From Amia ocellicauda (taxonomy: Eukaryota; Chordata; Actinopteri; Amiiformes; Amiidae), in assembly GCF_036373705.1 (NCBI RefSeq), contig NC_089866.1:22918001-22982000 (forward strand): a stretch of DNA of 64,000 nucleotides, in the 5' to 3' direction. This document shows positions 40,301 to 64,000 of the stretch, piece by piece; within the stretch, counting starts at the first letter, position 1, and every line of letters begins with the position of its first letter. The translations under genes and the position numbers were made by a program. Below the pieces are notes generated by a model, which worked only from the letters and a program-made list of their open reading frames with translations, made no database searches and had not been told where the DNA came from.

Positions 40301-42847
40301 TAAAGAATTTAAAATAATATGCTTTAAAAACTCGTACTTATTTTCTGACGATATTCCTCATCTTCCTCTTCAAACGTGTCGGCGCCTTGCATGAACCGGT
40401 CATATGTCTTCGCTGTGTACTCCATGAACATCTGGAGAAGACAAACATCCACCTTCTCATTAGACGAATCCTGCATGATTTTACAGAGGCGCTTGGGGGG
40501 ACTTGTGAAGGGGGACATTTCTATCATTGACCAGGTTTAGAATAGTGTGCATCAAGCACAACCCATTTTCACTAAGTGGTTGACTTCCACTTCACTTATT
40601 TTCACTTTTGAAAATCAAAGGGAATAAAAGCACACTACCTTATTAAATTCAACTCCATCCTCAATGTCCACACTACCTTCAGAAAAACCACCAAACAGCA
40701 AATCTTGCTTCTTCATGTTATTAAAGAGCTAGGGAAAAAGAGAACAGAAATCACATTCTAGTTAACAATGTATTGAAACAGCTTATAGAAAAGGCCAAGC
40801 TTCAAGTCCAGCCAGCAAAGACTCAAATTCACTGATGCACAAAAATACAAATACAAACTCCACAAGGAATGTCTTCTGCCTTTTTTTTCCCCTCTCCTTG
40901 AAAACAGTTACATTTCCCAAGCATCTGTACCATACCCTGACATACCTTTACATTGTCTATTAACCAGATCAGTGACCCCAGTATTTGTGGCCAAGTGTGT
41001 GGTGCTCCAACGGAGTACATTGAGCTTTTAGAGAGAGCAAATGGATATCTGGAATAGGAGAAAAAGCAACGTAATGCACGTAAGAGTCAGAAGATATATT
41101 TAGATATTGTATACAATTGCACATGACCATAATAGTGATTGATTACATGTTCAAGAGCCTGTATTAGTTACCCCAAATCTCGAAGAACTCGGGGAACCTC
41201 TTCTTCAATTTTGGACGTGGGCATCTGGAAAGTCGGATCCAAGAAGCTGTAGATGAAGGCGAAGATCTTCAGGAACTCCTTGGTGGATGGAGACTGAAGG
41301 GACTTGATCGTCACAGAGTTGGGGAAACCATTCTCTGACAAAAACTGAAAACGGGGGGAGATGTAGGTATTGCAATTCTCTCCTCCCTTCCCACATGTAC
41401 AACACTTAATATGGCTAATTTATTTGCTTTACCTCCCAAAGCTGCTTTATGCACTGCTGGACAAAGGCCTTGTCATGCAGAGGACGAGGGTCCTTCATTT
41501 TCTCTGCGCCTCCAAAAGCGCCAAAAGTGCTGTTACGGGACATACCTGCACCGCTTGTCCTGAAACACAGGATACAAATTTTGAGCTTTGACATCAGCAT
41601 GTCAGTAGGGCCAATGCACAGATGTATATTGGGATTATAAACCCTTAAAAAATGGATAACTCATGCATTTTTAAAGTTACCTTGTTCCAAAAAAACTAGT
41701 TCTTCTCTCAGATGTTCCTGACTGCGGTTTTGGCATACTGAGCTTCCCAAAACCAGGGCGATCCTTACTGCTCAAGAAAAAAACAGGTAAATATTCCAAA
41801 TTAAAGACTGTACTTAAATATATACACACACTGAACACAAATATAAATGGATGCAACAATTTCAATTATTTTACATTTACAGTTAACGTAACGAAATCAA
41901 TTTAAATTAATTTGGTCCAAATCTATGGATTTCAAGTCTCAGGTTTTGAGGGAGCGTGTGATTGGCTGCTGACTGCAGGAATGTCCACCAGAGCTGTAGT
42001 CGGGTCCAGACCCTGGTCAGGACGGGGAGCCGCAGAAGAGCTGCCCTGAGACGCTTTCTGACAGTGTGTGCAGAAATTGTTTTGGTTGTGCAAACCCACA
42101 GTTTCATCAGCTGTCTGGGTGGCTGGTCTCAGACAATCCCACAGGTGAAGAAACAAGATGTAACCAGGTCATTCCAGGACCTCCACATGTGGTCTGTGGT
42201 TCAGGCTGGTTTGACATACTGACAAATTCCCTAAAATGACGTTGATGTGACTTATAGTAATACTATATATATTATAGTATATAATATAGTATAATAATAA
42301 TAATAATAATATTAGAGAATTATTAACTTCTCTGGCAGCAGCTCTGGTAGAAATCCCTGCAGTCAGCATGCCAATTGCACATTCGCTCAAAACTTGAGAC
42401 ATCTGTGGCATTGTGTTGTGTGACAAAACTGCACATTTTACAGCGGCCTTTTATTGTCCCCAGCACAAGGTGCACCTGTGTAATGATGATAATAGGGTTA
42501 AATCAGCTTCTTGATATGCAACACCTGTCAGGTTTAACAAATGAATCAAAGCCAAATTGCAAAATAAAAGGGTTGTTGTTCATTACAAAGCTGGAGAATA
42601 ATTCTGTATTCAATTGAAACGTACATTATGCATGTATGAATGAAATTGTGTTAATGTGTTTTATGTGCAAAATACTTGAATTGATTGACAACATGTCAGG
42701 GATTACACTATATGATTAAGTTACATCAAATGCATGCGCCTCCTTTGGGAAATGCCACTACCTTTTTGGGGTTTCCAGGTTCATCCGGGCATTGTCAGCT
42801 ACCCTGAGCGGCAGCAGCGACTGCCGGCTGCTCGATGCGCGACTCAT
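37396..42847 (-). CDS. ndc80: NDC80 (Hec1) kinetochore protein, complete (634 aa)
   Basis: Sixteen coding exons join in frame, in gene order: 42762-42847, 41681-41767, 41433-41559, 41172-41344, 40946-41048, 40639-40728, 40338-40431, 40061-40161, 39801-39945, 39339-39544, 39025-39177, 38828-38917, 38631-38723, 38299-38429, 37870-37972, 37396-37518. The basic N-terminal tail ([22 protein letters not shown]) bears Ser/Thr next to Arg, like Aurora B sites. A calponin-homology domain follows at about 75-195 ([35 protein letters not shown]), then a long coiled coil ([27 protein letters not shown]). Human NDC80 is 642 aa. It is the microtubule-binding arm of the outer-kinetochore Ndc80 complex. Intron 13 uses a GC donor (38629-38630). 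Confidence 0.97.
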
Positions 42848-43475: not shown

Positions 43476-45297
43476 AGCGCACGGATGGGGCTGTGGAGAG
43501 GAGTGGAGCTGGCGGTGTTCAAGCGGCGACTCGGTGTTTGTTTAAACGCAAGGATACACCTGACGTTATTTTGTTTAAGCATATGCCAAAAATCCTCTAT
43601 CTAAACAAGATAGTCACATAGATATAGCATGTGTGAATACCAGGAAGTAATTCCACATTTATTTTTGCAGACAATACAGATGGTGTGCAATACTTATCTT
43701 CAAATATCTCGTCTGAACATAGTCTTGTTCAAGGTTGTACATCTGTGCTGTTAATGTATTTCTAGATATGTCGGATTTTTTTTTTTTTTGGATGCTTGGA
43801 GGAGGTTTGGTTGACCAATTCATTGGCTTCCTTTTAAATTCTAACCAGAAAACAGTAAAACAGGGGAGAAGCTTTTTTTTTTTTTTTTTAATTGCAAAAA
43901 TGCATTAAAGTTTAGACAAAACATAGCAGTCAAGAAAACCACAGAACAAAAACATAATTTACTTTTTATGGGAACAATAAATACTTCACAACATATTTCC
44001 ATCTGTGATCTGTAACTTGGAAACTGGTATTGAACATTAAAAAACAAATCACACATTCTGTCATGGATTAACTGCTCAGTCTCTCAATATTTTGTAATGT
44101 AAATAGCATTACCTACATGCTTACTGGATTCATATTTCAAAATCCCAGAGTCTACATTTGGACACCTTAAAGCACTGTTTAGATTAAAGCTTTCCTATCT
44201 TATTTTATACATTTTATTTATGTGTTTTCTTGGGTAAATGTATCTTCTCAATAATAATAATAATACATTATGCCACATTTATAGGGATTGAAATAGGTGT
44301 TGTATTGGAATGGACTTGGGTCAGATTAGGGGTATATAAAATTAATTAATTAATTAGGGATTTTAAATTTAAATTTTATAACAATATTTATATTCCTGTT
44401 TGTGTTGCAATTATGTTATTAAACAACCATGCCAACAAAACAAACAGCAATCCACAATACAAAATAATCAAATACACTATGGACATGATAGGGAGATATG
44501 TACTCCCTCAATAGATAGGCAGACAAAGAATACTCGGGTCCTGATTTAACTCAAATATAATACCAAATAGTTTATTCAGCTACAATGACGTGCTCCAGAG
44601 ATGGCCAGTGGGGACGACACATCTAAAGTTTTTCTAAAGAACATACTATCATATACAAGAGAGACTCCCTTTGATTTCTGGCAACTACATGACATCAATG
44701 AGGTGCCCCAAACTTTATCACACACTTCTCCTTTGTCTTCTGTTCTCTCTGTGGCCTTGGATGAATTCCTTTGTTTCTAAAAATCTGCTACACAGAACTA
44801 CTGCACCTGACCTCTCCGGAGCAATACGCAAAGCTTAAATTCATACATGGGTTACACAATCTTGCTGCAACAATGAATTTAATATATTCGGCATCTGGAC
44901 AGGGCACTGGCACATCAGTCCTTCCATCCACCCTCCCACAGCCAACCTGCATCCATTGCTAACCTCCCCCCTCATCTCTCTGTGGTCTGGACAGCATGTG
45001 AGCTCCAGCCTACAAATGGGACGACTGACTATAAAGCTGAAGAAAGCGAGGCACCAAGCAAAGTCTGACAAAACCAAAAAAGAGAAATATCTTGTAAATC
45101 TTTGAAATAGTGACCCCACCAGCTGTATGGGTCGCTAGAGGACGCTATGGTGACTAAAGATGCTCTTGACGCAGGCGCCTGTGATTGGAGGGCGGAGACA
45201 ACAGAGCAGTCTGCCCCGCCACTGTAGGAGATACCCGGATGTCCTCTGCAGCAGCCTGAACGTGTCTCTCATCCTCTGCCTCTCCAAAGAAGCCAAG
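43476..45297. other. Intergenic DNA between divergent ndc80 and mif
   Basis: Holds one copy of a 231-bp dispersed repeat (44349-44604), poly-T/A runs (43777-43790, 43873-43890) and, at 45130-45297, a GC-richer stretch that should contain the mif promoter and 5' UTR. No TATA box stands out. Confidence 0.5.
44349..44604. repeat. 231-bp dispersed repeat, copy 1
   Basis: From ttttataacaatattta to ctccagagatgg (44374-44604) it matches 46422-46652 base for base in length, with only a few changes. A shared attaattaggga precedes each. Confidence 0.9.
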
Positions 45298-47947
45298 ATG
45301 CCGATGTTCGTGGTCAATACCAATGTGGACAAAGACGCCGTCCCTGACGCTTTTCTGTCAGAGGCCACCAAGGACTTGGCTAAAGCAATGGGGAAACCTG
45401 CACAGGTGGGGTGCATCGTGCTGTTCAAGTTCAATTACTATTTTTTCGTATAATAAATATATAATATAGGCTGCAGTTACTCGCAAAGACGAACCGATGC
45501 GGAGTATAACGCGCCTGCATGCGTGGATGCACTTTGTGAGCATCGATGCGGTTACATTGCATAGCATTAACTCGAATAATTTGGCTTTGGTGAGGACAAA
45601 TCGCTGTTGGTGTGAGTTTACGAGGCCTTTGTGAATAATAAAAGACCTTGGGTACAGGGCTGCATTGACGAGCTGTGCGCAGTATACTTGGTGAAAACTT
45701 AACGGTGCCGACTGCCGGCTGGTTACATAATCCACACAGAAGAGTGGTCGGGTTCGTTCTGCGCGGCTCCGCCAATAGGATCGCTGGGATTCTGCAGATC
45801 TGCGCAGAACTGCGGACATCTGGGCTGTGAGAACGCGACCATAGGATCTGCGGTTTGCCGAGTGACTGCTAAAAATACATCTCAATCAAAACGACACAAA
45901 AATCTGGTGCTGCCAAACAATAGACTGCAGTTTAATTCAGACCTTGTCACGTTAATCAGTTGCACTATTGTTCTGGTAATCTAGAGGCCTTTTCCCGACT
46001 ATGTGGAAATGAAGTGCCATTAGTTAGCTTTGGCGGTACACGCCTCACCACTTCCTTTCCAGCTAAAACAGATTTACCCATTTTTTTTGTCTCGATTTTT
46101 CTAGAAATGTATAATTGAACTAGAAATCCCAGCAAGCAAAGTTCATCAATAAGGGGACCATTTCAATGCAAATACTTCGATTTATACAATTGTTGCATAC
46201 ATTTTTCCCCCCATATATTACTACAAATATTCCCCCGTGCCCCTACTAATAAATAGTAAATGCTTACAGTTTAATGCTTGTGAAGATCTAAATAGAAAAA
46301 CAAAAACAAAAATTAGAAATGTTTGGTGAAGATCTAAATAAATGCCCAAAGTCTGGTTTGTTTAATGCATATACATTGCTAAGTGCCAAGGGTGCCACTG
46401 ATTAATTAGGGATGTAAAACGTTTTATAACAATATTTATATTAATGTTTTTGTTGCAATTATGTTATTAAACAACCATGCCAACAAAACAAACAGCAATC
46501 CACAATACAAAATAATCAAATACACTATGGACATGGTAGGGAGATATGTACTCCCTCAATAGATAGGCAGACAAAGAATACTCGGGTCCTGATTTAACTC
46601 AAATATAATACCAAATAGTTTTTTCAGCTACAATGATGTGCTCCAGAGATGGTTTTTATGTCCACTTATATTCTAATTGTGGAAATCAATCAAGAAGTCT
46701 GGGTGCTAATCAACAGACTCATTCATATTTCCAACCAGTTACAGCTTTGACAAACTATGCACATCAAAATGGTGAAAAGAATAGTATTTGATGTCCTTAA
46801 AAGGCATAGATACAGTGGTACAGAAGTTTTTAATGTGTTTGCTTGTCTTCTGCAGTACATTGCAGTGCAGGTCAACGCTGATCAGATAATGATGTTTGGT
46901 GGAAAGCCAGACCCTTGTGCTCTGTGCTCCCTGCACAGTATTGGGAAGATCAGTGGATCGCAGAACAAGCAGTATTCCCAGCTGCTGTCTGGACTCCTCA
47001 AAAAGCACATGGGCATCCAGGCAGACAGGTACAGTACAGCTATAGGAGATGCATTGTGTACCAAACAAGGTATGCTGCATCATCTAAGGTATTGGGACAT
47101 GTCTACCTCTGCTAACTATGTTATAATACTTTATGTAGAGGTTTGGGTTTAAAAAGGCACGAGTACAACTAGTATACATGATGGTATTTTGGACATGGAA
47201 ATTTATGTTGACTTGCCAGTATGTGTAGACTTCAAATCAAGGGGTGTGTGTAACTGGCCAGGAAACATTACATTGGAAACATTTCAGCGCCAGAGTCCTG
47301 ATCTCAATCCCATTCACTGGTATTGCAAATCTGTTCGATACTTTGGAGACCAGCTGTATTTGTGGCCAGTGATTTAAGAGGTTCACATTATATTTTAAAC
47401 AGCACTGATCTTTGATGGAGCATTATATGTTAACTGGTTTAATATCAAAGCTAAAGTCACACTTAAGGAAGGATGGTGTGGTTTATACTGCTTGTATCTA
47501 CATCTACTAAATGGGTCACTTTCAAATTCATAGGAAAGCAGTTGCCCACATTTTTTAACACATCCAACTTTTTTTTTTTCTTGCCTCACTATGAATTTAA
47601 TATTGTAGGTTGTTTAGGAGAGTTCCAGAAAGCTTAATTCATAGCTCATTGGGAGGGGATGTACTTTTTTTTTTTTTTTTTTTTTACTAATTATACACAT
47701 TCTGGAGCTGAAGTATAGGTTGTTAAAGACAAAAAATAATTGGGTTTGTACATTAAAAGTGCGACACCTCTTCTGGATAGGGTATACTGCATACACTTGC
47801 ACTACAGGAGTGGGTAGCACTACAATCTTGACTATAATAACTCTGCTGGCACTTACACCCATCTTCTGTCATCTTTTCAGGATCTATATTAACTTTGTTG
47901 ACATGGAAGCAGAGAACGTGGGCTGGAACAACTCAACCTTTGGCTGA
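45298..47947 (+). CDS. mif: Macrophage migration inhibitory factor, complete (115 aa)
   Basis: Three exons, 45298-45405, 46856-47028 and 47881-47947 (108, 173 and 67 nt), give 115 aa, the family length. The start [10 protein letters not shown] leaves Pro2 as the N-terminal catalytic base of the tautomerase after Met removal. Lys33, Ile65, Tyr96 and Asn98 of the active-site area are kept. The redox motif CALC is at 57-60, and the end reads VGWNNSTFG. The protein is a homotrimeric cytokine with keto-enol tautomerase activity, secreted without a signal peptide; none is seen. MIF rather than D-dopachrome tautomerase is supported by CALC and by the C-terminus. Intron 1 is 1.45 kb and holds a dispersed repeat. 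Confidence 0.98.
46402..46652. repeat. 231-bp dispersed repeat, copy 2 (mif intron 1)
   Basis: Direct repeat of 44349-44604. The two copies bracket mif exon 1. Confidence 0.9.
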
Positions 47948-48437: not shown

Positions 48438-51400
48438 TTATTGTGTTTTACAGTTCTCCACTCCATCTTTCTGAGGTGCTATCGACCACCAGTCCGCATC
48501 ATTCTTGGAGTCTGCGGTCACATTCAAATCTGGAAAGAAAATAATTAGTTAAAACCTGCATAAGTCTTCAACTGTAGAAAATATGAATGCTCCGATTCCT
48601 CAGAGTGGTTTATTGTCAACTTAGTCTTGTATTACATATAAGTAAATCACCTATGGTAAAGAGCTGTGGTAATAGGCAGGGTTACAGTATTGAATAATGT
48701 CACTCACTTCAAGTTATTTAAAATAATAAGAAAGTTTACAAATGCGAGGAGGCCATTCAACCCATTGTGCTCATTTGGTGATGGGGGAGAAGTTGTAGAT
48801 TGGTGGAATACAGTGAACGGTCATTTACATGCAATAAACACTTTTTTAATGCAGTGAAATTTTGAAAACACCCAAATCTGTTGGATCCAAAATAATGGTA
48901 TTATAATACTAGCTGGAAAAAGGGTTCTTAACCCAGCTAACCTTCCACACAAGGGCAAAATCAAGTGTTATTTATCAGGGAGGGTTTTAAGCCTTTTAAA
49001 GAACTCCCATCCAGCAGTAATTTTAAGAATATTATAATCAGTCAAAAAAAGGGAATTTCGCCAGGTCACCAGCTGATTAAATAGATACTTGAAGAGGTGA
49101 AGGTGCCTGTAGACCACCTGTTTTGTCACCACTGCGAGTGTAATGTCTCAACTTCCGCATACTGAACCAGCTGTACAGATCCATCTTCCACACCCTCTAT
49201 AAAAGGGGTCTAATCAAATGTAGAGCAGGTTCAAAAGAAAGCTCAAAGAAAAAAGTGTCCCATTCCAACAGCTGGAGTAACTAGAAACAACTGTTACAGG
49301 ACTCTGAACTCTTACACCATCCCAAGTGTCGAGAACCAAAAACTAAATTCAGGTTACCAATCTCTGGATCACCGATGTCCGCCGACGAGGGCTGGTTTGC
49401 AATCTCTAACAAACAAAAAGCCATTCATGCACTTTTCAAAAGGGACTGGGATTTTCCTGCGCCTCGTAAAGCTTCTGACAGATTGGACAGGTTATAGATT
49501 CTGATAAGTGGTAATGTAAATATACACATCAATACATTACCTGGAATTGTTCCTAGATTGGAGTTGTCAAAGAACTGCTTCGGACAGGCAACTGACACCG
49601 ATTCAGCACGGTCAAAGAATTTACTCTTAGGGGAGTCCAAGGTGTGGCCTTCAGACGTGACCAGCCTTCTCTTTTTGGTAGGGGTGTGTGGAGACAGAAC
49701 CTGCCGGTCTTCAGATAGTCTTTCCATGTCGGTGAACGATGCTTTCACCCCCGAATTCTCCTTCAGTTTTCTGGCCCTGCTCTTCCACTTAGAAACCTCT
49801 TCTTGGAGGCTGACAACCAAACTGGGCAAAGGAAGATACAAGAATTGAGATGGTAGTGTAGCTCAGTGGTACATCATCTCCATTCTAAGACTAACTAGTG
49901 CAAAAGAAAAAAAGCAACTTAAAAGCCACTAACCCTCTAAAAAATATACACAGAAAAACAAAACCACTTACCTTTCAAGTTTGGTAGTTTTCTTTTTTAG
50001 CTGGTGAACTTCATTCTCCAGTTTTGCCTTCTCCGATTTAATCACCAACATCATTGTGCTCTGAACAATCCCACTGCCTCCCCCACACGTCACCGGGGCC
50101 CTGGCCTGTGCCTTTTCATCGACCATGACTAAAATACACATAAAAACAGAAAATGCTCAGTGTGGGGATATTGTTAAACCAGCCTCTGAAAAAATAAATG
50201 AATCCCAAATCTCATACAGAAAAGTACAGTGCATTTAAGTGTGGCACAGGTAGCAAAAGCAACTCTTGTATTGCAAATCTCTGCCCTTTGGAAATAAAAC
50301 CTCTCTCCAGAATTTCAACACAGTTAAAATATAAATCCACGAAAAATCTTTTTGTGGTGTGCTGTGCTGTAGCAAAACAGCTCAAGAAGTGTAAGCAACA
50401 TTTCCCCAGAATATTCAATACTAACATGAAGTGTCCGTTTCCTGCTGCAGTTCTCGGAGGGTTTCCTTCAGTTTTCTCAGCGCATCCTCTTTGTGTTCCA
50501 GCGTCGCGGCCATTGAAGCAACCCTAGAAACACATTTGATAAATCATTAATCTGCATACTTTTAGTAGATTTTTGGCAATAATAACTATGGTCATTTGTT
50601 AGTTATTTTCATAGAACATAACTGCTAAAATCAAAACAAATATTCACAGGGAGTATCACAGGCTATGACTTCATATCCACACAGACCACACTACAGTCAG
50701 TCAAGTGCACATTGATGCAGTGGATTTATTCCTGAAGCTTGCACGTACTCTTGCCCATGTGCCTTTGACAGGCCAGTCCTCTCCAGCTCCAGTTTCACCA
50801 CTCTGTTCTTCAGCATTTCCAGCTCTTCCTCGTATGGTGCTGCCCCTTGCTGGACCTTTGCCTTTGTGCACAAAAAATAAATAGGTCAGGATGAGAAAAC
50901 ACTGCATATGGTAAACTTGTGGAAGTTGCCCACCACATGACAATTACTACACAACTTGTGATATAAATGCAATGAATCTCGTACATGTTAATTATACACA
51001 TACCTCAAGGTTTCGGAGGTGCTCTTTGAGGGTTTTGATGGAGCTCTCTCTCTCGCTGACCTGAGCCAGAAGCTCCTGTAATTCTGTCTGGATCATATTA
51101 GTTGCCTTCTTGTGATCTGAAACCCTGTCTTCAGCTTTACTCAGGGCAGCCCTCAACTCGTTGATTTTCATCTGCATGAACTGACAAGCCACACATATAC
51201 CATCAAACCACTAATATTACACAAAGAAAGGCTGAGAGGATAGTGATGTTATGCAATACACAAGGTGGGTCATATTAAGAAAATAACATTTAGTGACAAG
51301 TGGAGACGTTTGGAAATATATAGGCAACAGTGAAGTTGCTTTTAATTAAAATGTAATAATTTAAGAAGTGTATTTAGGAACTGTGCATCTTTATTTTACC

Positions 51401-52441
51401 TTTATTTCTTTTTCACTCCCTTCTAGTTTTTCCACCAGTCTTTGGTTCTCTCGCACTAAATCAGCCCCAGTGGTTGTGGTGCCACTTTCTAACTCTTGGA
51501 ACAGGGTTCGACTTCTGTTGCGTTCTTCCTTCAGCTTCTCTGTGGACTGGACTCTGAAGGCCTGGCATCTTTCTTTCTGATCAAAATATCTTGCTTTTAA
51601 GCCCTATATAAAAAAAAAAAGTAATGCAAGAGTCAAGGGAAAGTAGAATTAAGGAACAATTTGAGTAAAGCTAAAATACAGTTCAACACTGAATAGAATT
51701 GATTCCACAATTAAGATCATGTGGTGCAGTGCAGTACAGGGAGGGGCACAACATGGCCACCAGGTATGGCACTGCATCCCCCGAAAGCCCTGCTCCTGAC
51801 CTACAGGACTCACCTGAATGGCCTGGCTCCAGCAAATCTTTTGTTGGACTGGTAAATCAACTTTTGGACCCAGACTAATTTGGATTGGACAGTTTGCTTA
51901 GTGTGTCCATCTATTCTTAGTGTTTGTGTTTAATGAGGGAGTGTAGGTAGGCTCCAGGGGAGCTAAGGTTTTCTTTGGGAGATTGTTTTGGTTTCTTTAA
52001 CCACTGAGCACTATACATAATAAATTCACTTCCTCTCACCCTGCCTTTATAAAACAAGCCTAGCACTGTGGTCACCAACCCCCACGGTGCCACAATAGGT
52101 TCAATCTCAAGCAGGTGGTAAATTGATCATCCCTGGTCTTCACAACATCTTTGGGGAAACAGTGTTGTCTCCACCAGAAAATATATGTAATCATTTACCT
52201 GAAAAACCTGTGACGCCTCCCGAACTTGCTGTTCAATTCTGGTTTTCTCCTGCTGCAGTAATCTTTCCAGCTGTGTTACATCAATAGATGGGTTATCACA
52301 CAGTGCCCTCAGTGCTGCATTGAGCTCTTCCTGAGCTGGGGATTGCTCTTGACTGGAGGCATGATTAGCCAACCCTTCTTCCAGGTCAGACAAAATTTGA
52401 TTCATTTCCTACAAAAAATTAAATGTATTTATTATATATAC

Positions 52442-52472
<31 letters not shown>

Positions 52473-54937
52473 CACTCACCTAAAGGATTATTAGGAACAC
52501 CATACTAATACTGTGTTTGACCCCCTTTCGCCTTCAGAACTGCCTTAATTCTACGTGGCATTGATTCAACAAGGTGCTGAAAGCATTCTTTAGAAATGCT
52601 GGCCCATATTGATAGGATAGCATCTTGCAGTTGATGGAGATTTGTGGGATGCACATCCAGGGCACGAAGCTCCCGTTCCACCACATCCCAAATATGCTCT
52701 ATTGGGTTGAGATCTGGTGACTGTGGGGGCCAGTTTAGTACAGTGAACTCATTGTCATGTTCAAGAAACCAATTTGAAATGATTCGACCTTTGTGACATG
52801 GTGCATTATCCTGCTGGAAGTAGCCATCAGAGGATGGGTACATGGTGGTCATAAAGGGATGGACATGGTCAGAAACAATGCTCAGGTAGGCCGTGGCATT
52901 TAAACGATGCCCAATTGGCACTAAGGGGCCTAAAGTGTGCCAAGAAAACATCCCCCACACCATTACACCACCACCACCAGCCTGCACAGTGGTAACAAGG
53001 CATGATGGATCCATGTTCTCATTCTGTTTACGCCAAATTCGGACTCTACCATCTGAATGTCTCAACAGAAATCGAGACTCATCAGACCAGGCAACATTTT
53101 TCCAGTCTTCAACTGTCCAATTTTGGTGAGCTTGTGCAAATTGTAGCCTCTTTTTCCTATTTGTAGTGGAGATGAGTGGTACCCGGTGGGGTCTTCTGCT
53201 GTTGTAGCCCATCCGCCTCAAGGTTGTACGTGTTGTGGTTTCACAAATGCTTTGCTGCATACCTCGGTTGTAACGAGTGCTTATTTCAGTCAAAGTTGCT
53301 CTTCTATCAGCTTGAATCAGTCGGCCCATTCTCCTCTGACCTCTAGCATCAACAAGGCATTTTCGCCCACAGGACTGCCGCATACTGGATGTTTTTCCCT
53401 TTTCACACCATTCTTTGTAAACCCTAGAAATGGTTGTGCGTGAAAATCCCAGTAACTGAGCAGATTGTGAAATACTCAGACCGGCCTGTCTGGCACCAAC
53501 AACCATGCCACGCTCAAAATTGCTTAAATCACCTTTCTTTCCCATTCAGACATTCAGTTTGGAGTTCAGGAGATTGTCTTGACCAGGACCACACCCCTAA
53601 ATGCATTGAAGCAACTGCCATGTGATTGGTTGGTTAGATAATTGCATTAATGAGAAATTGAACAGGTGTTCCTAATAATCCTTTAGGTGAGTGTATATAT
53701 ACAGTGAGGGGAAAAAAGTATTTGATCCCCTGCTGATTTTGTACGTTTGCCCACTGACAAAGAAATGATCAGTCTATAATTTTAATGATAGGTGTATTTT
53801 AACAGTGAGAGACAGAATAACAACAAAAAAATCCAGAAAAACGCATTTCAAAAAAGTTATAAATTGATTTGCATGTTAATGAGGGAAATAAGTATTTGAT
53901 CCCCTATCACTCAGCAAGATTTCTGGCTCCCAGGTGTCTTTTATACAGGTAATGAGCTGAGATTAGGAGCACTCTCTTAAAGGGAGTGCTCCTAATCTCA
54001 GCTCGTTACCTGTATAAAAGACACCTGTCCACAGAAGCAATCAATCAATCAGATTCCAAACTCTCCACCATGGCCAAGACCAAAGAGCTGTCCAAGGATG
54101 TCAGGGACAAGATTGTAGACCTACACAAGGCTGGAATGGGCTACAAGACCATCGCCAAGCAGCTTGGTGAGAAGGTGACAACAGTTGGTGCGATTATTCG
54201 CAAATGGAAGAAACACAAAATAACTGTCAGTCTCCCTCGGTCTGGGGCTCCATGCAAGATCTCACCTCAATGACCTCAGTTTCAATGATCATGAGAACGG
54301 TGAGGAATCAGCCCAGAACTACATGGGAGGATCTTGTTAATGATCTCAAGGCAGCTGGGACCATAGTCACCAAGAAAACAATTCGTAACACACTACGCCG
54401 TGAAGGACTGAAATCCTGCAGTGCCCGCAAGGTCCCCCTGCTCAAGAAAGCACATGTCACCTTCTCACCAAGCTGCTTGGCGATGGTCTTGTAGCCCATT
54501 CCAGCCTTGTGTAGGTCTACAATCTTGTCCCTGACATCCTTGGACAGCTCTTTGGTCTTGGCCATGGTGGAGAGTTTGGAATCTGATTGATTGATTGCTT
54601 CTGTGGACAGGTGTCTTTTATACAGGTAACGAGCTGAGATTAGGAGCACTCCCTTTAAGAGAGTGCTCCTAATCTCAGCTCATTACCTGTATAAAAGACA
54701 CCTGGGAGCCAGAAATCTTGCTGAGTGATAGGGGATCAAATACTTATTTCCCTCATTAACATGCAAATCAATTTATAACTTTTTTGAAATGCGTTTTTCT
54801 GGATTTTTTTGTTGTTATTCTGTCTCTCACTGTTAAAATACACCTATCATTAAAATTATAGACTGATCATTTCTTTGTCAGTGGGCAAACGTACAAAATC
54901 AGCAGGGGATCAAATACTTTTTTCCCCTCACTGTATG

Positions 54938-55023
<86 letters not shown>

Positions 55024-58000
55024 TACACACACGTGCACACATACATATATATTATGGATATTAAAAACAAATTCAGTGTTCTATGCCAAAACCAAAATAT
55101 AAATTTGTACCATCTTGATGTACATCTTAAAAGGTTATATGATAACCTACCCTGAGCTGCCCATCCCTCTGCTTCAGAAGCTCAGACAGCCTCTCGTTAT
55201 GATCCGTACTGTGTGCAGAGTCGTGGTCGGCCGATCGCTCGATTCTGGAGATCAGAAGATCGTGCAGCTTGCTCTCCTCAAAGCAGGCCATGCTGTGCTG
55301 CAGAAGCACTTCAAAGTGCTCTTTGTGCCACTTGGCTATACCAGAGTAAGCCATCTGACAAGGATGAGATTAGATTTGGTTTAGAGGTGAGGTCAGTCCA
55401 AAAAATGTGTACCTCCAATAAATGGGCTTAGATCTCCATAAAAGCATCTGTGTAATGCTAGTCTTACACCACTAGGTCTTTACTTCTTGCTAGGCCATGT
55501 TCTACAAAGTTTATAAAGATCAGTAACCTTTGTATGGCATGCATACTTAAATTAAATGCAAGGTAATGCCCACCGGTTCTAACAGCATGAGGTTTTGACA
55601 TGAGATCGAAGCATGGGGGTGGGGGGGGGGCGGAAGTACACTTACCACCTGCTGCCTCAGTCTCAAAACAAGCTCACTGTTCTTGTCCCCGATGTCAGAG
55701 TTGAGTGTCAGCATGGGTTTGGACTGATCCCGAGGCAGGGAGGAGACGAGCTGATGCACCAGTTTGTTCTGTGAACCAACGTCCTTTTTCAGCAGAGTGC
55801 TGATGTTCTTGGCCCGACTATCAAACTTGTCAATCAGCACCTGGAACTTCTTCAGAGATTCCTGGGGAAGGAAGGCAGCAGCCCACATTAGCACCTAGAT
55901 CTTGAGTGCTCCAATTCATTCAAATTCAGCAGCATTGAGGACAGAATATGACTCACCTGGTGCTCTTGTTCAGATTCCTCCAGACGCTGAGACAGCTTCT
56001 CCTTCCCCACCGAGAGCTCGCACTTACGCTCAAGGTAAACAATCTCCTCTTTCAGGCTGCTTATCTTGTCGGAAAGTGCCTGTTTCTCCTTGATTGCCTC
56101 AGCAATTAACTAAAAACAACAAAAATAGTTAAATCTCTTAAAAATCACACACCTTTCTACCCAGATTTCTAAAAAAAAAAAAAAAATGTATAAGATTGCA
56201 CCTTGCCTACTTATTCAGGGTAGTCATAGAATACTCACACTCTCACTGTTCATTTTCTCTGCCTTGATATCATCTTGGAGTCGTTTCAGGCCTTCGTGAA
56301 GCTGGTCCCTCTCCTGCACGAGGCCGGCCAGCTCTCCCCTGAGCTCCTGCAGGGAGATCTCAGTCTCCTGCAACTGTGCCTTCAGCTCTTCTTCCAGATG
56401 GCACCGCTCCTGAACCACAGACTCATGTTCTTGCCTCTGCAGGTCATGTTCAGCCACAGTGTGACTGAGCTCCTGACGCAGGCCCAACAGCTACAGGATC
56501 AGGAAGGTAAGGAGGAGAGGAGAGGGGAAAAAAAAAAAAAAAAAAAAAAAAAAATCCATTCTCCATTATCCTCAAGGTTCCAAAGCCTGAAAACTACATT
56601 TACAAAGGCCTTATCACCATGAATTCCTGGGCCCAATAAATACTAAATTGCAAAATCATAGCTCACCTTCTCCAAATGCTCGTGTTTGAGACTGCATACC
56701 TCGGCCTCCTTCGCTGCTACTTGGGCTCTCAGGTCAGAAATCTGTTGCTGCTTGTCCGTCAGTTGCTCTTGGGCGTGTTTCAGCTTTTCTTCATGTTGAT
56801 TCTGATCATATAAAGCCATTGATAGTTATTTACAGACGGGAATTCACTTGCAGATCTGAGAAAATCAGTTGTGTTTAGGATACTGGTTTCCCACAAGCAC
56901 ACATCACACAACACTTGAAATTTAGATTTAATAAGCTTTGGTCCATATTGGGCTTGCTTTGTAACATGCACTGAAGTAGTCCTCATTTTCTACGTTTCTA
57001 AAATGACTTAAACTGTTTCCTTGGTAGATTTTACAATGGGACACAGATGTAGAGCACAAAACGTGACTGTAAACATGCCATGAATATAACTTGCCTCCAC
57101 TGCCTGGGTCTGCTGGATGCTGCTGATCTGGAGTTCTTTATCTGCTACCAGGCCTCTGAGCTCCTCAACCTCCTGAAGCTTTTCTTTCAGTTCATCCTGG
57201 GCTTGTTGCAACTTCACCTGCATCTGTAAGGTGAAGAAATGTAAGCCTTAATAGTATAAGAATCCTTGTCAAATGGTCAGAATAAAGTCAAATTGGTCTT
57301 AATTTCCTCAAAACCCAACCCCTCACCATCTCTACATTCTCCTCCAGATCCATCCTCAAATGGTTCTTCTCAGCTCGGACTGCCTCGAGTATCTCCTTCA
57401 GCTGGTCTGTCTCCTGGGTGAGGGATGCGATGCGTGTCCGCAGCTCCTGTAGTTCAGTATCTTGACTCTGAACAGAGTCTCTGCTCTCAGACAGGAGGCT
57501 GTCCCTCTCACTAGTCACCACCTTCAGCTCCTCAGTCAATACAGTCACCTGCAGGGAGGGTGCAAAGACTGACTTTACACACTTTTAATCTGAAGGACTT
57601 TCCTCCCGTTTCTACATTTTAAACTTCATAGACTGATGAACACAGGACACCAAACCTACTTTTTGCTCCAGGTGAGCTTCTTGCTCTGTTTTCTGGATCT
57701 TGAGGTCAGACATCAGTTGCTGATGCTTTTTGAGCTCCTCTTGGGCACAGCGAAGGTCACTTTGAGTCTCCACAGCCTGCAGAGATCATTTGGAAAGGAT
57801 GTTTTTTAAATAAAGGTTTGAGATCAAAAACAGCTTATATGTGAAGATATTTAGATAAAGATTAACCCCTCACCATCTCCACATTCTCCTCCAGGTCGGC
57901 TTTCAGCTGGTTCTTCTCAGCTCGAACTCCCTCCAGTATCTCCTGCAGCTGGTCTCTCTCCTCCATGAGGGATGTGATCTGTGACCGCAGCTCCAGCAGC

Positions 58001-61000
58001 TCAGCATCTGGACTCTGAGCAGAGTCTCTCATCTCAGACAGGAGGGCATCCCTCTCACTGGTCACCATCTTCAGCTCCTCAGAAATGGTGAGAACCTGGA
58101 AAGATTCATTGGATTAATATCCCATGACATCCCAGACAGGAGAGTGTCCTCTCACTGGTCACCACCTTCAGCTCTGCTCTAAACTCATTTATCTGTAAGG
58201 AGTAAGTCACTGATTGAAGGAAATGCCTACACAGATTCAAGTGTCTTTTTAAGAGGACTAAATGATCCACAGTTTACCTGGTGTTCCAGTCGATCTTCTT
58301 TCTCAGTACTCTGGTCCTTGAGCTCCTCAACCAGCTGTTCCCGCAGTTTGAGCTCCTGCTTGATACTGCAAATTTCTTTCTGGGTCTCTACAACCTGAAG
58401 ATGAACAAATCACTGCATAAATATTGATGGGTGGGCAGCAGTGTCTTTATCCTTGATGTCACCATTTCCAGCTCATCTGAAGGACATTCTTGGCTTTGCA
58501 TGTTTGTTTCACAAACAAGAGAAACAGAAGAACGCCAGAGCTTACCTGTTGTTCCAGCTGAGATTCTCTCTCTGCTCTCTGGGTCTCGAGGTCAGAGTTC
58601 AGTTGCTGCTGGTTTCTCAGTTCTTCCTGGGTACAGCAAAGTTCTCCCTGGACCTGTACCACCAGAGGGAAATTAACCACTGTGTGAGATGCAGAGAGCT
58701 AAAGTCTCAGATGAAATGCATTACACAATTATTGACCGTGTTGTCAATCATGTCCTTTCCCAGAGAGAGGCCAGGCAATGCAACACCCCGTACATTAATT
58801 TATCTGAATGAAGCCGGCTTGAATCTTACAAAAGTAAGGAGAAAAGGGAGGAACCTCAATGGTAAGAGGGCCACCGTAAGTGTGCCAGGACAAAGGGGAG
58901 CCAACATCACCATGTATGCTGCATCTCGAATGATGGTGTCCTTTGCCACATACCTACAATAGAGCCACGCAATACAGAATGTCTCCTCACATTTCTTAAT
59001 GCATGGCACCCAAGAGTGGGATGGGTGAGGCCTGACACGTCTCTTTTAGTCATCATATAGGACAATGTTGCCTTCCACCAGTCCCGTCTGGTTACTGAAT
59101 AGTTTGCAGCCCACCAATGAATGGTGATGCAATTTCTCCCTCCATGATTGAAATAACTTTTCATTAGGTAACAAGTTGTATGTTTTGATGGAGGTAGTTT
59201 TGAGAGTCTTGGTGCATTTTGCAAATTACATGCGTCATTTTGGCCAACATGTTCCAGTTTGGGGCTGTGTGTTAATGGTTTTGAAATAGTGAATTCTGTT
59301 GGGACAAATGTGCCCAAGCAATCGAGAAACACTAATTCCAATGTCTGACTCACTTAAAACTAGAATGTAAATAACAATCCTTTTCAAATGGTCAAAATAA
59401 GATAAAGTCCATCTTAATTTCCACAAAATCCAACCCCTCACCATCTCCACATTCTCCTCCAGGTCGGCCTTCAGCTGGTTCTTCTCGGCTCGGACTCCCT
59501 CCAGTATCTCCTGCAACTGATCTCTCTCCTCCGTGAGCGATGTGATGTGTGTCTGCAGCTCCTGCAGCTCAGCGTCTGGACTCTGAGCAGAGTTTCTCCT
59601 CTCAGACAGGAGGGCGTCCCTCTCACTGGTCACCACCTTCAGCTCTGAAGTCAACTCATTTATCTGTAAGGAGTAAGTCACCGATTGAAGGAAATGCCTA
59701 CACAGATTAAAGTGTCTTTTTGATAGGACTAAATAAATGATCCACAGCTTACCTGGTGTTCCAGTTGAGCTTCTCTCTCAGTACTCTGGTCCTTGAGCTC
59801 CACAACCAGCTGTTCTTGCAGTTTGAGCTCCTCCTTGACATTGCAAAGGTCTCTACTCTCAGACAGGAGGGCGTCCCTCTCACTGGTCACCAGTTTCAGC
59901 TCCTCACTCAGCTCAGTCACCTGCACAGGAATGTCATTTCAGTTTAAAAAAAATGTTGTATTCACCTATCAAAGTGAAATGCTCACAATTCATTAAACAC
60001 AAGAGAGGAGAAGCGAATCAATAGAACAGTACTTTGTTGAGTAAGTCGATGGTGTTAGGCAATTCCTCTATGCTGCTCTTCTCCGTTAGAGGTTCCCTCT
60101 GTGCAACCTGGGTGTTTAAGTCCTGAACCGTTTGCTGTTGCTCTCCAATCTTCTCCTGAGCCACTCGCAGTTCCTCTTGAGTCTCAATCATCTGCACCAA
60201 CAAGCAAAGACACTTCTTAGTCAATGTGCAATGCTAAATTACTGTTATGATCAATCAACTTGATTCCTCTTTATCACCCTTCAGCTCCTTATTATTAAAT
60301 GATAAAAAACAAGAATCAGCAATTTTGTTTTTAACAATGCATGCTTGCAACAGCTTTATTTTGTAGTCAGACCACATGACACAAAGTGAAAGCTAAAGTA
60401 CATAAAATTAGAAAATGTACATTGATTTCTAAAGGGGAAAAAAATACATTCTTTCTGAATGTATTGTTCAGATACAGCGATAACAGCACTTTAATTTCAG
60501 CCCAAACCAAGGTCAAATTAAGAGGATCTGTATTACAGCACAGAATCTACTCAGATCTACACAAGGTGTGCCATTTTGTTTTAGCGCAGACATTAAAAAA
60601 CAAAATTACAAAAACATTTACACACTCACCATCTCCACATTATCCTCCAGGTCGGCCTTCAGCTGGTTCTTCTCGGCTCGAACTCCCTCCAGTATCTCCT
60701 GCAGCTGGTCTCTCTCCTCCGTGAGTGATGTGATGCGTGTCTGCAGCTCCTGCAGCTCAGCGTCTGGACTCTGAGCAGAGTCTCTCCTCTCAGACAGGAG
60801 GACGTCCCTCTCACTGTTCACCACCTTCAGCTCTGCAGTCAACTCATTTATCTGTAAGGAGTAAGTCACCGATTGAAGGAAAAGCCTACACAAATTCAAA
60901 TGTCGTTTTGAAAGAAATAAATGATCCCCAGCTTACCTGGTGTTCCAGTCGAGCTTCTCTCTCAGTACTCTGGTCTTTGAGCTCAGCAACCAGCTGTTCT

Positions 61001-63280
61001 TGCAGTTTGAGCTCCTCCTTGACACTGCAAATGTCTTGCTGGGTCTCAATAACCTGAAGGTGAACAAATCACTGCATAAATATTGATGGGTGGGCTGCAG
61101 GGTCTTTATATCCTTGATGTCACCATTTCCAGCTCATCTGAATGTTTATGTTTCACAAACGAGAGAAACAGAGGAACGCCAGAGCTTACCTGTTGTTCCA
61201 GCTGAGATTCTCTCTCTGCTCTCTGGGTCTCGAGATCAGAGTTGAGTTGCTGCTGGTTTCTCAGTTCTTCCTGGGCCTGCACCACCTAAGGAAATTAACC
61301 ACTCTGTGTGATGTGCAATCACCAACTGCAATTAAAGATCTTAGATATTGGTCTTCACCACAAGTGCAACCCATTCTTCTTGTCGTCAATTCCTGAAGAG
61401 TGGAAAAATAGGATGGAGGCAAAAACATGTAGCGAGAGTTTGTTTACAACAAGGGGCTAAGATGTTTCTTGAGCTTATATGTTGTTCTAATTGACCCTCT
61501 CTTTCTGCAATCTGGCTCTTCAGGTCAGTGAATAGCTGCTGCATCTGCCCGAGCTCCTCCTGGGCACAGCGAAGATCTCCATGGATTTCCACACTCTGAG
61601 GGCAATAAAACTACCCCTTTCAACATGAGACTTGAAACCACTAACTCACTAATTCCAATTGTGGTTGACTCACTTCAGTAGAAAAAAACTCTCTCAAAAG
61701 GACGAGACCGGACCAAGTCAACCTTAACTGCCACTCACCATCTCCACATTCTCCTCCAGGTCGGCCTTCAGCTGGTTCTTCTCGGCTCGGACTCCCTCTA
61801 GTATTTCCTGCAGCTGGTCTCTCTCCTCTGTGAGGGATGTGATGTGTGTCTGCAGCTTCTGCAGATTAGTGTCTGGACTCTGAATAGAGTCTCTCCTGTC
61901 AGACAGGAGAACGTCCCTCTCACTGGTCACCAGTTTCAGCTCCTCACTCAGCTCAGTCACCTGCACAGGAATGTCATTTCAGTTTAAAAAAAATGTTGTA
62001 TTCACCTATCAAAGTGAAATGCTCACATTTCATTAAACACAAGAGCGGAGAAGCGATTCAATAGAACAGTACTTTGTTGAGTAAGTCGATGGTGTTGGGC
62101 AATTCCTCTATGCTGCTCTTCTCCGTTAGAGGTTTCCTCTGTGCAACCTGGGTGTTTAAGTCCTGAACAGTTTGCTGTTGCTCTCCAATCTTCTCCTGAG
62201 CCACTCGCAGTTCCTCTTGAGTCTCAATCATCTGCACCAACAAGTAAAGACTCCTCTTAGTCAACACACATTTGTTTTTCACCCTTCAGCTCCTTATTCT
62301 TAAATTATGAAACAAACCATTACATGTTTTAAATACAAACAATCCATGCTCTTTCAACAGCATTATTTTGCAGTCAGACCACGTCACAAAGTGAAAGGTA
62401 AAATTACATACATTTAGAAAATGTATGTTGATTTCTAACGAGAAATAACTACATTATAAGTCTGAATGTATTGTTCAGATGGAGCGATTACAGCTTAATA
62501 CAAAACATTACAGCCCAGACAAAGGTAAAATTAAGAGGATCTGTACTGTGACAGGAGTAAAAAAGACCACTGAACACTTTAGCCTTTGAATTTTTCACAC
62601 TCACCATCTCCACATTTTCCTCTAGGTCGGCCTTCAGCTGGTTCTTCTCGGCTCGGACTCCCTCCAGTATCTCCTGCAACTGATCTCTCTGCTCCGTGAG
62701 CAATGTGATCCGTGTCCGCAGCTCCTGCAGCTCAGCGTCTGGACTCTGAGCAGAGTCTCTCCTCTCAGACAGGAGGGCGTCCCTCTCACTGTTCACCACC
62801 TTCAGCTCTGAAGTCAACTCATTTATCTGTAAGGAGTAAGTCACCGATTGAAGGAAATGCCTACACAGATTAAAAAGTGTCTTTTGAGAGGAATAAATTA
62901 TCCCCAGCTTACCTGGTGTTCCAGTCGAGCTTCTCTCCGAGTACTCTGGTCTTTGAGCTCCGCAACCAGCTGTTCTTGCAGTTTGAGCTCCTCCTTGACA
63001 CTGCAAATGTCTTGCTGGGTCTCAATAACCTGAAGATGAACAAATCACTGCATTAATATTGATGGGTGGGCGGCACAGACTTTATATCCTTGATATCACC
63101 ATTTCCAGCTCATCTGAAGGACATTCTTGCCTTTGCATGTTTATGTTTCACAAACAAGAGAAACAGAGGAATGCCAGAGCTTACCTGTTGTTCCAGCTGA
63201 GATTCTCTCTCTGCTCTCTGGGTCTTGAGGTCAGAGTTGAGTTGCTGCTGGTTTCTCAGTTCCTCCTGGGCCTGCACCAC
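48438..63280 (-). CDS. cenpe: CENP-E kinesin-7, C-terminal 1682 residues (5' end beyond the right edge)
   Basis: Thirty-one exons (5049 nt) stay in frame, in gene order: 63185-63280, 62913-63029, 62605-62826, 62073-62231, 61739-61960, 61190-61285, 60937-61053, 60630-60851, 60033-60191, 59753-59920, 59442-59663, 58546-58653, 58278-58394, 57874-58095, 57660-57776, 57327-57548, 57095-57223, 56667-56801, 56239-56490, 55957-56109, 55646-55861, 55151-55354, 52199-52408, 51400-51603, 51004-51180, 50749-50855, 50426-50523, 49972-50128, 49541-49821, 49358-49405, 48438-48529. Nearly all is coiled coil. The C-terminal part has [10 protein letters not shown] (Cdk-type site and basic patch), [12 protein letters not shown] and the final CaaX box CKTQ, as in human CENP-E (2701 aa), where it is farnesylated. 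CENP-E is the kinetochore motor that moves chromosomes to the spindle equator. The motor domain is outside the window. Intron 17 of this list, after 57095, uses a GC donor. Confidence 0.93.
48530..49357. other. Penultimate intron of cenpe
   Basis: No gene was recognised. Near 48735-48780 a phrase (gcgaggaggccattcaaccca) is typical of an old dispersed fish repeat. Confidence 0.4.
52473..53693 (-). mobile_element. Tc1/mariner element, DD36E type, apparently complete
   Basis: The 1221-bp element has inverted ends cactcacctaaaggattatt and its reverse complement aataatcctttaggtgagtg, flanked by TA (52471-52472, 53694-53695) inside a TA-rich run. The 28-base ends match perfectly (cactcaccta...aggaacacc). 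It carries an unbroken transposase on the minus strand and sits in the large intron of cenpe between exons 55151-55354 and 52199-52408. Confidence 0.95.
52505..53545 (-). CDS. Intact Tc1/mariner (DD36E) transposase, 346 aa
   Basis: Full open frame from [20 protein letters not shown] to the stop. The N-terminal half has two helix-turn-helix regions (about 8-45, [20 protein letters not shown], and 65-120). The catalytic core has WSDESRF (Asp155), FQQDNAPCH (Asp246) and [11 protein letters not shown] (Glu283), so 36 residues separate the second Asp from Glu. That spacing marks the DD36E (Incomer-type) group rather than the DD34E Tc1 type of the neighbouring elements. A Gly-rich loop ([11 protein letters not shown]) is kept. 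The enzyme would cut and paste the element at TA sites. With no stop or shift in 346 codons it is a candidate for a recent or active copy. Confidence 0.93.
   Translation of the reverse strand: MGKKGDLSNFERGMVVGARQAGLSISQSAQLLGFSRTTISRVYKEWCEKGKTSSMRQSCGRKCLVDARGQRRMGRLIQADRRATLTEISTRYNRGMQQSICETTTRTTLRRMGYNSRRPHRVPLISTTNRKKRLQFAQAHQNWTVEDWKNVAWSDESRFLLRHSDGRVRIWRKQNENMDPSCLVTTVQAGGGGVMVWGMFSWHTLGPLVPIGHRLNATAYLSIVSDHVHPFMTTMYPSSDGYFQQDNAPCHKGRIISNWFLEHDNEFTVLNWPPQSPDLNPIEHIWDVVERELRALDVHPTNLHQLQDAILSIWASISKECFQHLVESMPRRIKAVLKAKGGQTQY
53702..54933. mobile_element. Palindromic (inverted-duplicated) derivative of the Tc1 element seen at 21752
   Basis: From 53702 the left end and first part of the transposase gene run forward (MAKTKELSK, 54071 on). 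At about 54456 the sequence turns and returns in reverse through the same N-terminal region to a second left end at 54933. The outer 478 bases of each side are near-perfect inverted copies, with about 275 bases of single-copy transposase sequence between. The right half of the gene is absent, so no transposase can be made. It lies 8 bases from the DD36E element. Confidence 0.92.
54936..55012. repeat. (TA)n microsatellite
   Basis: TATG then about 35 TA units, continuing into short CA/TATG runs to about 55050. It follows the right end of the palindromic Tc1. Confidence 0.95.
58125..58192 (-). pseudogene. Truncated relic of a cenpe repeat exon
   Basis: After ctccttacag, the reading [15 protein letters not shown] matches the first third of the 74-codon repeat exon ([15 protein letters not shown]). 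It then breaks off in ggacactctcctgtctggg, with no donor. It sits 30 bases upstream of the working exon 57874-58095. Confidence 0.8.
58750..59180 (+). mobile_element. Degraded DDE transposase fragment in a cenpe intron
   Basis: Plus-strand reading shows [18 protein letters not shown], then, after shifts and stops, [13 protein letters not shown] and MVMQFLPP. The pattern fits an IS630/Tc1-like DDE transposase core (first and second Asp areas). No intact frame or ends were found. Family placement is from motif memory. Confidence 0.55.
61479..61595 (-). pseudogene. cenpe exon with destroyed splice donor
   Basis: After ccctcag the frame [20 protein letters not shown]...LEQH (39 codons) is a relative of the working exon 57660-57776. 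Its donor should read CAG|GTAAGC as in the gamma exons but reads CAT|ATAAGC, so GT is lost. It is phase 0 on both sides, so skipping does no harm to the frame. Read-through ends at a stop about 25 codons later. Confidence 0.75.
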
Positions 63281-64000
63281 CTAAGGAAATTAACCACTGT
63301 GTGATTTGCAATCACCAACTGCAATTAAAGACCTTGAATATTGCTCTTCACCACAAGTGCAACCCATTCTTCTTTTGTCAAGTCCTGAAGAGTGAAAAAT
63401 AGGATGGAGACAAAAACATGTACAGGGGGTTCTCGAAAGTAATCGGGGATGTGTTTATGAAAATCGCGTTGAATTGCAAAATGAAGAATTAAGTGGAATT
63501 AATATTTATAAGAAATAATGGGAATAGCCCTAGATGCATTCCAACACCCCAAAATGTCTTTCAAACACTAAACCACTCTTATAATTCATTACAATGATAA
63601 TTTTAAATACAAATAAATGTATAACCATTACAGTATGAACTCAGTGAATGAATCTAACATAGTATTGTACCATTTCTAAACACAAACACTTTTTACCTAG
63701 CCCATCTCCAAAATATTAAATCACATTATGTAAAATAAAGACAAAAAATAAGATGTGCACTTAGTAAAATTTGAGAAATTATTCATATAATTGAGCGTGA
63801 ATCTGTGCGAACGAGAGAGGAAAAGAAAAGTCTACTAACCGCACAGGATCACTGTTCACAGACTGAGAACAGACAACATTGTGGGACTATGGGAGTGTGT
63901 CTAGCAACAGTTACGATATTAAGATTTAGTGTAAAATACTTATTTTGTACTTTCACAGTCTCCATAGTTGAAAAAAGCAATAATGGGAACAGACAAAGTA
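63281..64000. other. cenpe intron continuing past the window edge
   Basis: No exon was found. The first 130 bases match the intron after 61285, but the dead exon at 61479-61595 has no counterpart here: similarity stops near 63420 at aaaaacatgtaca. The rest is AT-rich and unrecognised. Confidence 0.5.

Follow-up and report, generated by a model that had tools for sequence, protein, structure and literature searches.

A probably old coiled-coil repeat in the CENP-E stalk of Amia ocellicauda, likely rebuilt by unequal exchange centred on exons

The gene cenpe of Amia ocellicauda carries a tandem array of coil exons of two main kinds, B and S, all bounded by phase 0 introns. The array likely represents the repeat region of the CENP-E stalk, an ancient repeat that has been rebuilt through unequal exchange centred on exons. 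An earlier note on this DNA had described the array as young and as lengthening the coiled coil. Its assignment of the gene to CENP-E is borne out, and so is tandem duplication of phase 0/0 coil exons with some recent exchange among units, as seen in self-matches and intron comparisons. A recent origin of the array within this gene and a lengthening of the stalk are not supported: a provisional human CENP-E sequence contains the same repeat and has a stalk of nearly the same length between two conserved anchors.

Results

Identity of the gene and its model

The gene in the window (the whole stretch of 64,000 nucleotides analysed here) is cenpe, on the minus strand, and its motor and tail match structures of human CENP-E. 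The first 371 model residues, which form the motor, match 1t5c with 538.6 bits (E 5e-161), compared with 280.6 bits for the top kinesin other than CENP-E in the same query. The last 601 model residues match the tail in 8owi (E 1.9e-23). The C-terminal coil that targets the kinetochore and corona is present, with the conserved loop motif GGGSGIV at model residue 2658. In exon n2, the model reads RRVTW, which would correspond to the RVxF site with a phosphorylatable threonine (human T422).

The spliced model, a prediction curated by hand, comprises 56 exons and 2,788 codons, is stop-free with consistent phases, and is read from 74205 downwards on the minus strand. Human CENP-E has 2,701 residues (PMC6028960). 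Coordinates above 64000 continue past the window end into an adjoining piece of the genome (988 Mb in 385 contigs), and the 1,000-base overlap of the two is identical. In the model, exon s8 and the first motor exon have GC donors. The curated model replaced an automatic exon chain, which had missed z2 and z4, truncated B3 and g6, and included false exons. At the 3' end, the last exon or exons beyond 49541 were not found. The C-terminal part is as follows.

49541..56109, minus strand: C-terminal part of cenpe, 10 model exons, including the conserved 10-residue patch

Downstream of cenpe, the minus strand also carries exons of another kinetochore gene, NDC80/HEC1 (38971-41416; Ndc80_HEC and NDC80_loop), and an exon match to macrophage migration inhibitory factor (MIF; 45154-45450, plus strand) lies between the two genes. 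The plus strand also carries a transposase fragment of the DDE_Tnp_4 type (33487-33687) and the end of a sugar-transporter-type protein (35940-36212). Between two cenpe model exons lies a Tc1-type transposase reading frame of 346 codons with no internal stop (52505-53545, minus strand; Pfam HTH_Tnp_Tc3_2 and DDE_3). At 53931-54704, two 97-bp end repeats (95% alike) flank the same N-terminal transposase reading on both strands, and the plus-strand reading matches the Sleeping Beauty helix-turn-helix model. This stretch looks like a folded-back Tc1-like element. Rfam at gathering thresholds gives no match within the window.

Organization of the exon array

The array spans 56239 (firm from 57327) to 64962, with three exons beyond 64000. 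The earlier note had placed exon sets repeated together with their introns at 58278..63280; they are present there, within the wider array. From E1 to X10, the array encodes model residues 989-2187 in 22 exons, 19 of which are in the window. Seven are copies of the B exon (222 nt, 74 codons; six in the window) and 13 are S-type or S-like (E1, d1, g2, a2, z2, g3, a3, z4, g6, a6, s7, s8 and s9; 11 in the window); the others are an in-frame B/S hybrid, c4 (168 nt), and X10. All 22 are phase 0/0, and most array copies have splice sites near consensus. Two further copies were excluded from the model, namely d3, whose donor reads AT for GT, and b6x, a truncated and frame-shifted B. The earlier statement that every exon is phase 0/0 holds for the 22 model exons, with these two copies set apart. 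The features of the array are listed below from high to low coordinates.

63425..64117 (past the window end), no strand assigned: transposable-element insertion of 693 bp in the d1-g2 intron, with matches in at least 39 other places of the genome (at least 48 rows of matches, from 40 scored candidates out of 108)
63185..63280, minus strand: S-type coil exon g2, 96 nt, 32 codons (the 39-codon S exon minus 7), placed by splice sites and frame
62913..63029, minus strand: S-type coil exon a2, 117 nt, 39 codons
62605..62826, minus strand: B exon B2, 222 nt, 74 codons
62073..62231, minus strand: S-type exon z2, 159 nt, 53 codons, with a weak donor (AAA/GTACTG); equal to z4 at 156 of 159 sites
61739..61960, minus strand: B exon B3, 222 nt, recombinant; upstream intron c4-like (99%), downstream intron B1-like (100%)
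61479..61595, minus strand: S-type copy d3, open over 39 codons, donor AT not GT, probably no longer an exon
61190..61285, minus strand: S-type exon g3, 96 nt
60937..61053, minus strand: S-type exon a3, 117 nt
60630..60851, minus strand: B exon B4, 222 nt
60033..60191, minus strand: S-type exon z4, 159 nt, with a weak donor (AAA/GTACTG) like that of z2
59753..59920, minus strand: hybrid exon c4, 56 codons, the first ~24 B-derived and the last 32 S-derived
59442..59663, minus strand: B exon B5, 222 nt, recombinant; upstream intron B2/B4-like (88-91%), downstream intron B7-like (82%)
~58689..59333, no strand assigned: transposable element inserted into the intron that precedes g6, with at least 73 matches elsewhere in the genome (73 of 75 match rows; 40 of 219 candidates scored, so the counts are lower bounds)
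58546..58653, minus strand: S-type exon g6, 108 nt, acceptor shifted inward by 9 nt
58278..58394, minus strand: S-type exon a6, 117 nt
58130..58192, minus strand: b6x, truncated and frame-shifted B remnant
57874..58095, minus strand: B exon B6, 222 nt
57660..57776, minus strand: S-type exon s7, 117 nt
57327..57548, minus strand: B exon B7, 222 nt, the copy least like the other B exons (80-83%)
57095..57223, minus strand: older S-like exon s8, 129 nt, model donor GC (GCAAGT)
56667..56801, minus strand: older S-like exon s9, 135 nt
56239..56490, minus strand: X10, 252 nt, perhaps distantly related to the B exons (likeness by eye and by an iterated profile only)

The counterpart of d3, d1 (64163-64276), has a GT donor and a 3-nt deletion; the two differ at 3 of 114 sites. 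Offsets of 1975-2040 bases between rounds of the array, as first reported, hold between the two best-preserved rounds. The remaining round sits 2658 bases off, because the transposable element at ~58689-59333 lies within one of its introns. The array escaped Tandem Repeats Finder, which handles periods of up to 500.

Divergence between duplicated blocks

Two blocks, 59849-61946 and 61889-64627, form the best pair. The pair ends within exons on both sides, in B3/B1 on one and in B3 and the hybrid c4 on the opposite one. Self-matches within the pair are 96.5% (376 bp), 91.9% (836 bp; 60617-61431 against 62592-63422) and 94.0% (513 bp), and a stretch of 276 bp in between is at 78.6%; random 80-bp pairs drawn from the window reach at most 64% (n = 300). 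Paired introns of the two main blocks differ at 0 of 143, 3 of 112, 9 of 136, 17 of 189, 9 of 85 and 93 of 363 sites. Near-identical introns had been taken to mean that the duplications are recent. Some introns are indeed 97-100% alike, but others differ by 7-26%. This range of 0-26% speaks against a single recent burst and indicates repeated turnover over a long time.

A 217-bp tract at 61582-61798 (minus strand) is identical to 64263-64479, whereas the block pair differs at 177 of 2016 aligned sites. No identical run as long was obtained in 5000 permutations, in which the largest run was 153. Therefore, exchange or conversion continued after the block duplication.

Exchange points within exons

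We compared the B exons in all pairs and in four parts: upstream intron (80 bp), the opening 63 nt of the exon, its closing 120 nt, and downstream intron (60 bp). The random control, with 300 pairs each, reaches a maximum of 67% for 60 bp and 64% for 80 bp. Over their closing 120 nt, the seven B exons retain a likeness of 80-96%, whereas introns of different families are at random level. Upstream introns fall into one family of B2, B4, B5 and the remnant b6x (88-91%) and another of B3 and c4 (99%); downstream introns pair B1 with B3 (100%) and B5 with B7 (82%).

The two flanks of several exons belong to different families. Upstream of B3 the intron is c4-like (99%) and only 61% like that of B1, whereas downstream it is B1-like (100%). 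B5 resembles B2 and B4 upstream (91 and 88%, versus 57% for B7) and B7 downstream (82%, versus 58 and 50% for B2 and B4). The hybrid c4 is B3-like upstream (99%) and like the a-type S exons downstream (82-87%), and its B/S junction joins two distinct kinds of exon. The flank families thus switch across B3, B5 and c4. Since the opposite introns of these exons come from different copy families, the exchange points would lie inside the exons, and exchange within exons is a well-supported reading of the sequence as the simplest account of the flank mosaics.

Constraint and heptad register

Between the paired blocks, exons show 46 differences in 988 sites and a single gap (3 nt), and introns 131 differences in 1028 sites and 14 gaps (p = 9e-11 for substitutions and 0.001 for gaps). 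When the most diverged intron is left out, the substitutions are 46 of 988 versus 38 of 665 (p = 0.36) and the gaps 1 versus 6 (p = 0.019). Pooled pN/pS across 21 pairs of B exons, which are not independent of one another, is 0.51. From these comparisons, coding constraint on the array copies appears moderate.

The heptad register was assigned with a home-made decoder, with residue scores of its own and register-shift penalties of 3, 4, 5, 6 and 8. At a penalty of 3 or 4, array exons start at position a in 17 of 22 cases, against 2 of 18 other stalk exons. They end at position g in 16 of 22, again against 2 of 18, and most contain one four-residue stutter. With stiffer penalties, the starts at a go through 17, 17, 16, 14 and 12 of 22 and the exons running from a to g through 14, 14, 12, 7 and 4 of 22. 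Independently of the decoder, the commonest array exon lengths (74, 53, 39 and 32 codons) all leave a remainder of 4 modulo 7, and c4, with 56 codons, equals 8 heptads. The remainder of 4 is absent in d1 (38), g6 (36), s8 (43), s9 (45) and X10 (84 codons). These register cases are few and not independent, because the array exons are copies of one another.

The repeat in human CENP-E

The human CENP-E sequence used here is provisional: the letters of its repeat region carry no independent check, the total length alone having been checked. It agrees with 1t5c (by eye) and with 8owi, except for the first residues of the 8owi construct, and its numbering reproduces the positions T422, 2452, 2454, 2527 and 2531 given in published accounts (PMC7475649, PMC7617963). 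The earlier note had proposed a repeat search on CENP-E of other vertebrates, and in the provisional human sequence such a search detects the repeat. A profile of five fish B-S units scores 94.0 bits overall against the human stalk. Seven human stretches score 12.0-55.1 bits, above all controls, and one further stretch 8.9. As controls, 200 window-shuffled human stalks score at most 6.5 bits and the reversed stalk 1.3, and the fish coil before and after the array scores 11.5 and 6.5. With a profile of the seven B exons, the best human stretch reaches 36.8 bits, compared with no more than 9.5 in the shuffles and 9.8 in the other fish coil. The shuffled, reversed and own-coil controls matter because HMMER E-values are described as less accurate for coiled coils (PMC3695513).

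When a single fish unit is compared with the human stalk, copy 2 (residues 1030-1116) gives 44.6 bits (E 1.9e-10 at PDB size), copy 1 gives 30.8, and the rest stays at or below 16.9. Among the 177,635 sequences of the PDB set, there is no match to the repeat, the best scores being 16.7 bits for one fish unit and 16.0 for the profile. By eye, nine B-like copies can be placed in the human stalk (h1-h9), of which h6 and h9 score -1.5 and 1.6 with the fish profile. The fish and human proteins are collinear, in two BLASTP pieces spanning most of both. As far as the provisional human sequence can be relied on, the repeat likely predates the split from human. An iterated two-species profile of the repeat was set aside; it had drifted to other coil of the fish, at residues 2520-2624 beyond the array (61.9 bits). 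Pfam gives no family above cut-off on the repeat (HMMR_N reaches 25.3 of 30.1 bits, CENP-F_leu_zip 17.8 of 34.5 and ACBP4_C 18 of 31.2), and we take these sub-threshold scores as generic coil. The open-licence literature matches listed contain no description of a stalk repeat or exon array in CENP-E.

Trees were built from 74 columns and from 42 core columns, with 16 rows each; one fish row of the 74-column tree pairs B3 with the dead exon d3. A branch separates the seven fish B copies and human copy 2 from the other eight human copies, with support of 100/100 (74 columns) and 100/99 (42 core columns), for a grouping picked after the score of copy 2 was known. The alternative in which human copy 1 joins the fish copies is rejected (p-AU 0.019 and 0.010), whereas a clade of fish copies alone is not (p = 0.30). 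A third tree, built from five fish units together with two distant fish rows, had little resolution (21/0 for the five fish rows with copy 2). Human copy 2 shares 22 of 42 core residues with the fish, the other human copies 11-16. These comparisons suggest that the fish and human lineages likely amplified different ancestral units, again subject to the provisional human sequence. The stalk of this lineage would then have been rebuilt mainly from one ancestral unit and that of the human lineage mainly from another.

Length of the stalk

From the anchor DGKVPK to the anchor GGGSGIV, the model has 1,833 codons and the provisional human CENP-E sequence 1,827 residues, in a comparison of two species, which are too few to show that selection holds the length. 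The model value becomes 1,727 if z2 and z4 are dropped and 1,872 if d3 is added. Therefore, the array does not give an unusually long stalk. Before the first anchor, the model has 825 residues against 704 in human; this excess of 121 residues is outside the array and mostly between model residues 491 and 625. The repeat-bearing part may have undergone little net change in length since the common ancestor with human.

Discussion

The reading that we consider likely is that the phase 0/0 B and S exons are an old repeat of the CENP-E stalk, kept in turnover by unequal exchange that is centred on exons. Unequal crossing over and conversion would pair the copies at their exons, which are still alike where introns of different families no longer align. 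The sequence shows that one exchange fused a B and an S exon in frame to give c4, that at least one tract underwent late exchange or homogenisation, and that some products are broken. The array exons are bounded at codon borders, most of them also at heptad borders, so that many exchange products would remain readable coil; selection would eliminate those that do not. In the cell, the repeat would serve as a spacer of the long flexible CENP-E tether.

Two alternatives take the copies themselves at face value. A recent burst of tandem duplication that lengthens the stalk in this lineage is suggested by the introns that are 97-100% alike between units and by several stretches that are 92-97% alike, and ahead of the array the model exceeds human by 121 residues, though not through array exons. 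We regard it as unlikely, since other paired introns differ by 7-26%, the repeat is also found in the provisional human CENP-E sequence, and the stalk between the anchors is within 6 codons of the human one (1,727 to 1,872 versus 1,827 under the variants with doubtful exons). The copies could instead be cassette or mutually exclusive exons that yield stalk isoforms. All 22 model exons of the array are phase 0/0, and therefore any subset of them keeps the frame; mutually exclusive splicing of tandemly duplicated exons is, moreover, known as a class (PMC9741552). Against this, most copies have near-consensus splice sites and the product of all exons is about as long as the human stalk, which leaves a set of alternatively spliced exons very unlikely.

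The other two concern whether the array is real and whether its likeness to the human repeat reflects descent. Tandem near-copies are a known weakness of assemblies, and haplotypes or repeats might have been falsely joined. Two units, however, carry transposon insertions that are absent from the others (58689-59333 and 63425-64117), the exon copies differ by 2-20% and have a mosaic order, the frame is open across 22 exons, and the stretch is without N. A DNA search of the 385 contigs gave no second copy of the array. A simple assembly duplication is rejected on the differing insertions and on this search, and an artefact of any such kind is barely plausible. Coiled coils do converge, and the fish and human repeats could have arisen by independent duplications of coil rather than from one ancestral repeat; strong likeness is confined to a single human copy (22 of 42 core residues, versus 11-16 in the others), and two of the nine are missed by the profile. 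Convergence of this kind is nevertheless improbable, given that the best human match lies far above the best PDB sequences and the shuffles and that the two proteins align in order along most of their lengths.

An old repeat with exon-centred exchange could be extended to a self-rebuilding ruler, in which exons neutral in frame and register allow units to be replaced by exchange within exons, lineages amplify different units, and selection holds about 1,830 residues between the anchors. We put this forward tentatively and regard it as more doubtful than not. According to a review, a stalk that is shortened or replaced by kinesin-1 coil fails to rescue chromosome alignment, which points to length and flexibility, with the caveat in the same review that those constructs were possibly defective for other reasons (PMC7475649). 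If the ruler is true, the question of stalk length versus stalk sequence becomes a comparative test of unit number against anchor-to-anchor length. Such a stalk would further offer a clear example of recombination that pairs exons instead of introns, with exon borders tending to heptad borders.

The closest known system is human CENP-E (KIF10, kinesin-7), which on the provisional sequence is orthologous and collinear, with the same B-S repeat and a near-equal anchor-to-anchor length. In contrast, the human copies are strongly diverged from one another, and eight of the nine are of another unit type, whereas DNA likeness among the B copies of the fish is 80-96% and some of their introns match. 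In the kinetochore scaffold KNL1, the MELT repeats reportedly show fast turnover, with recurrent loss and gain of units. The recurrent change in unit number in a kinetochore protein would be the shared feature, but the KNL1 units are docking motifs rather than heptad coil exons. Phase-compatible exon blocks are multiplied in other long structural proteins, as in the triplicated exon block of nebulin and the repeat exons of titin. These differ from CENP-E in protein and fold, and the exchange points in CENP-E lie within single exons. Coiled-coil spacers of the giantin type are alike in that length is apparently kept while sequence changes (PMC5082667); the main text of that giantin review has no occurrence of CENP-E or of duplication. 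Unlike in those spacers, the change in CENP-E here would proceed via exon swapping and re-amplification.
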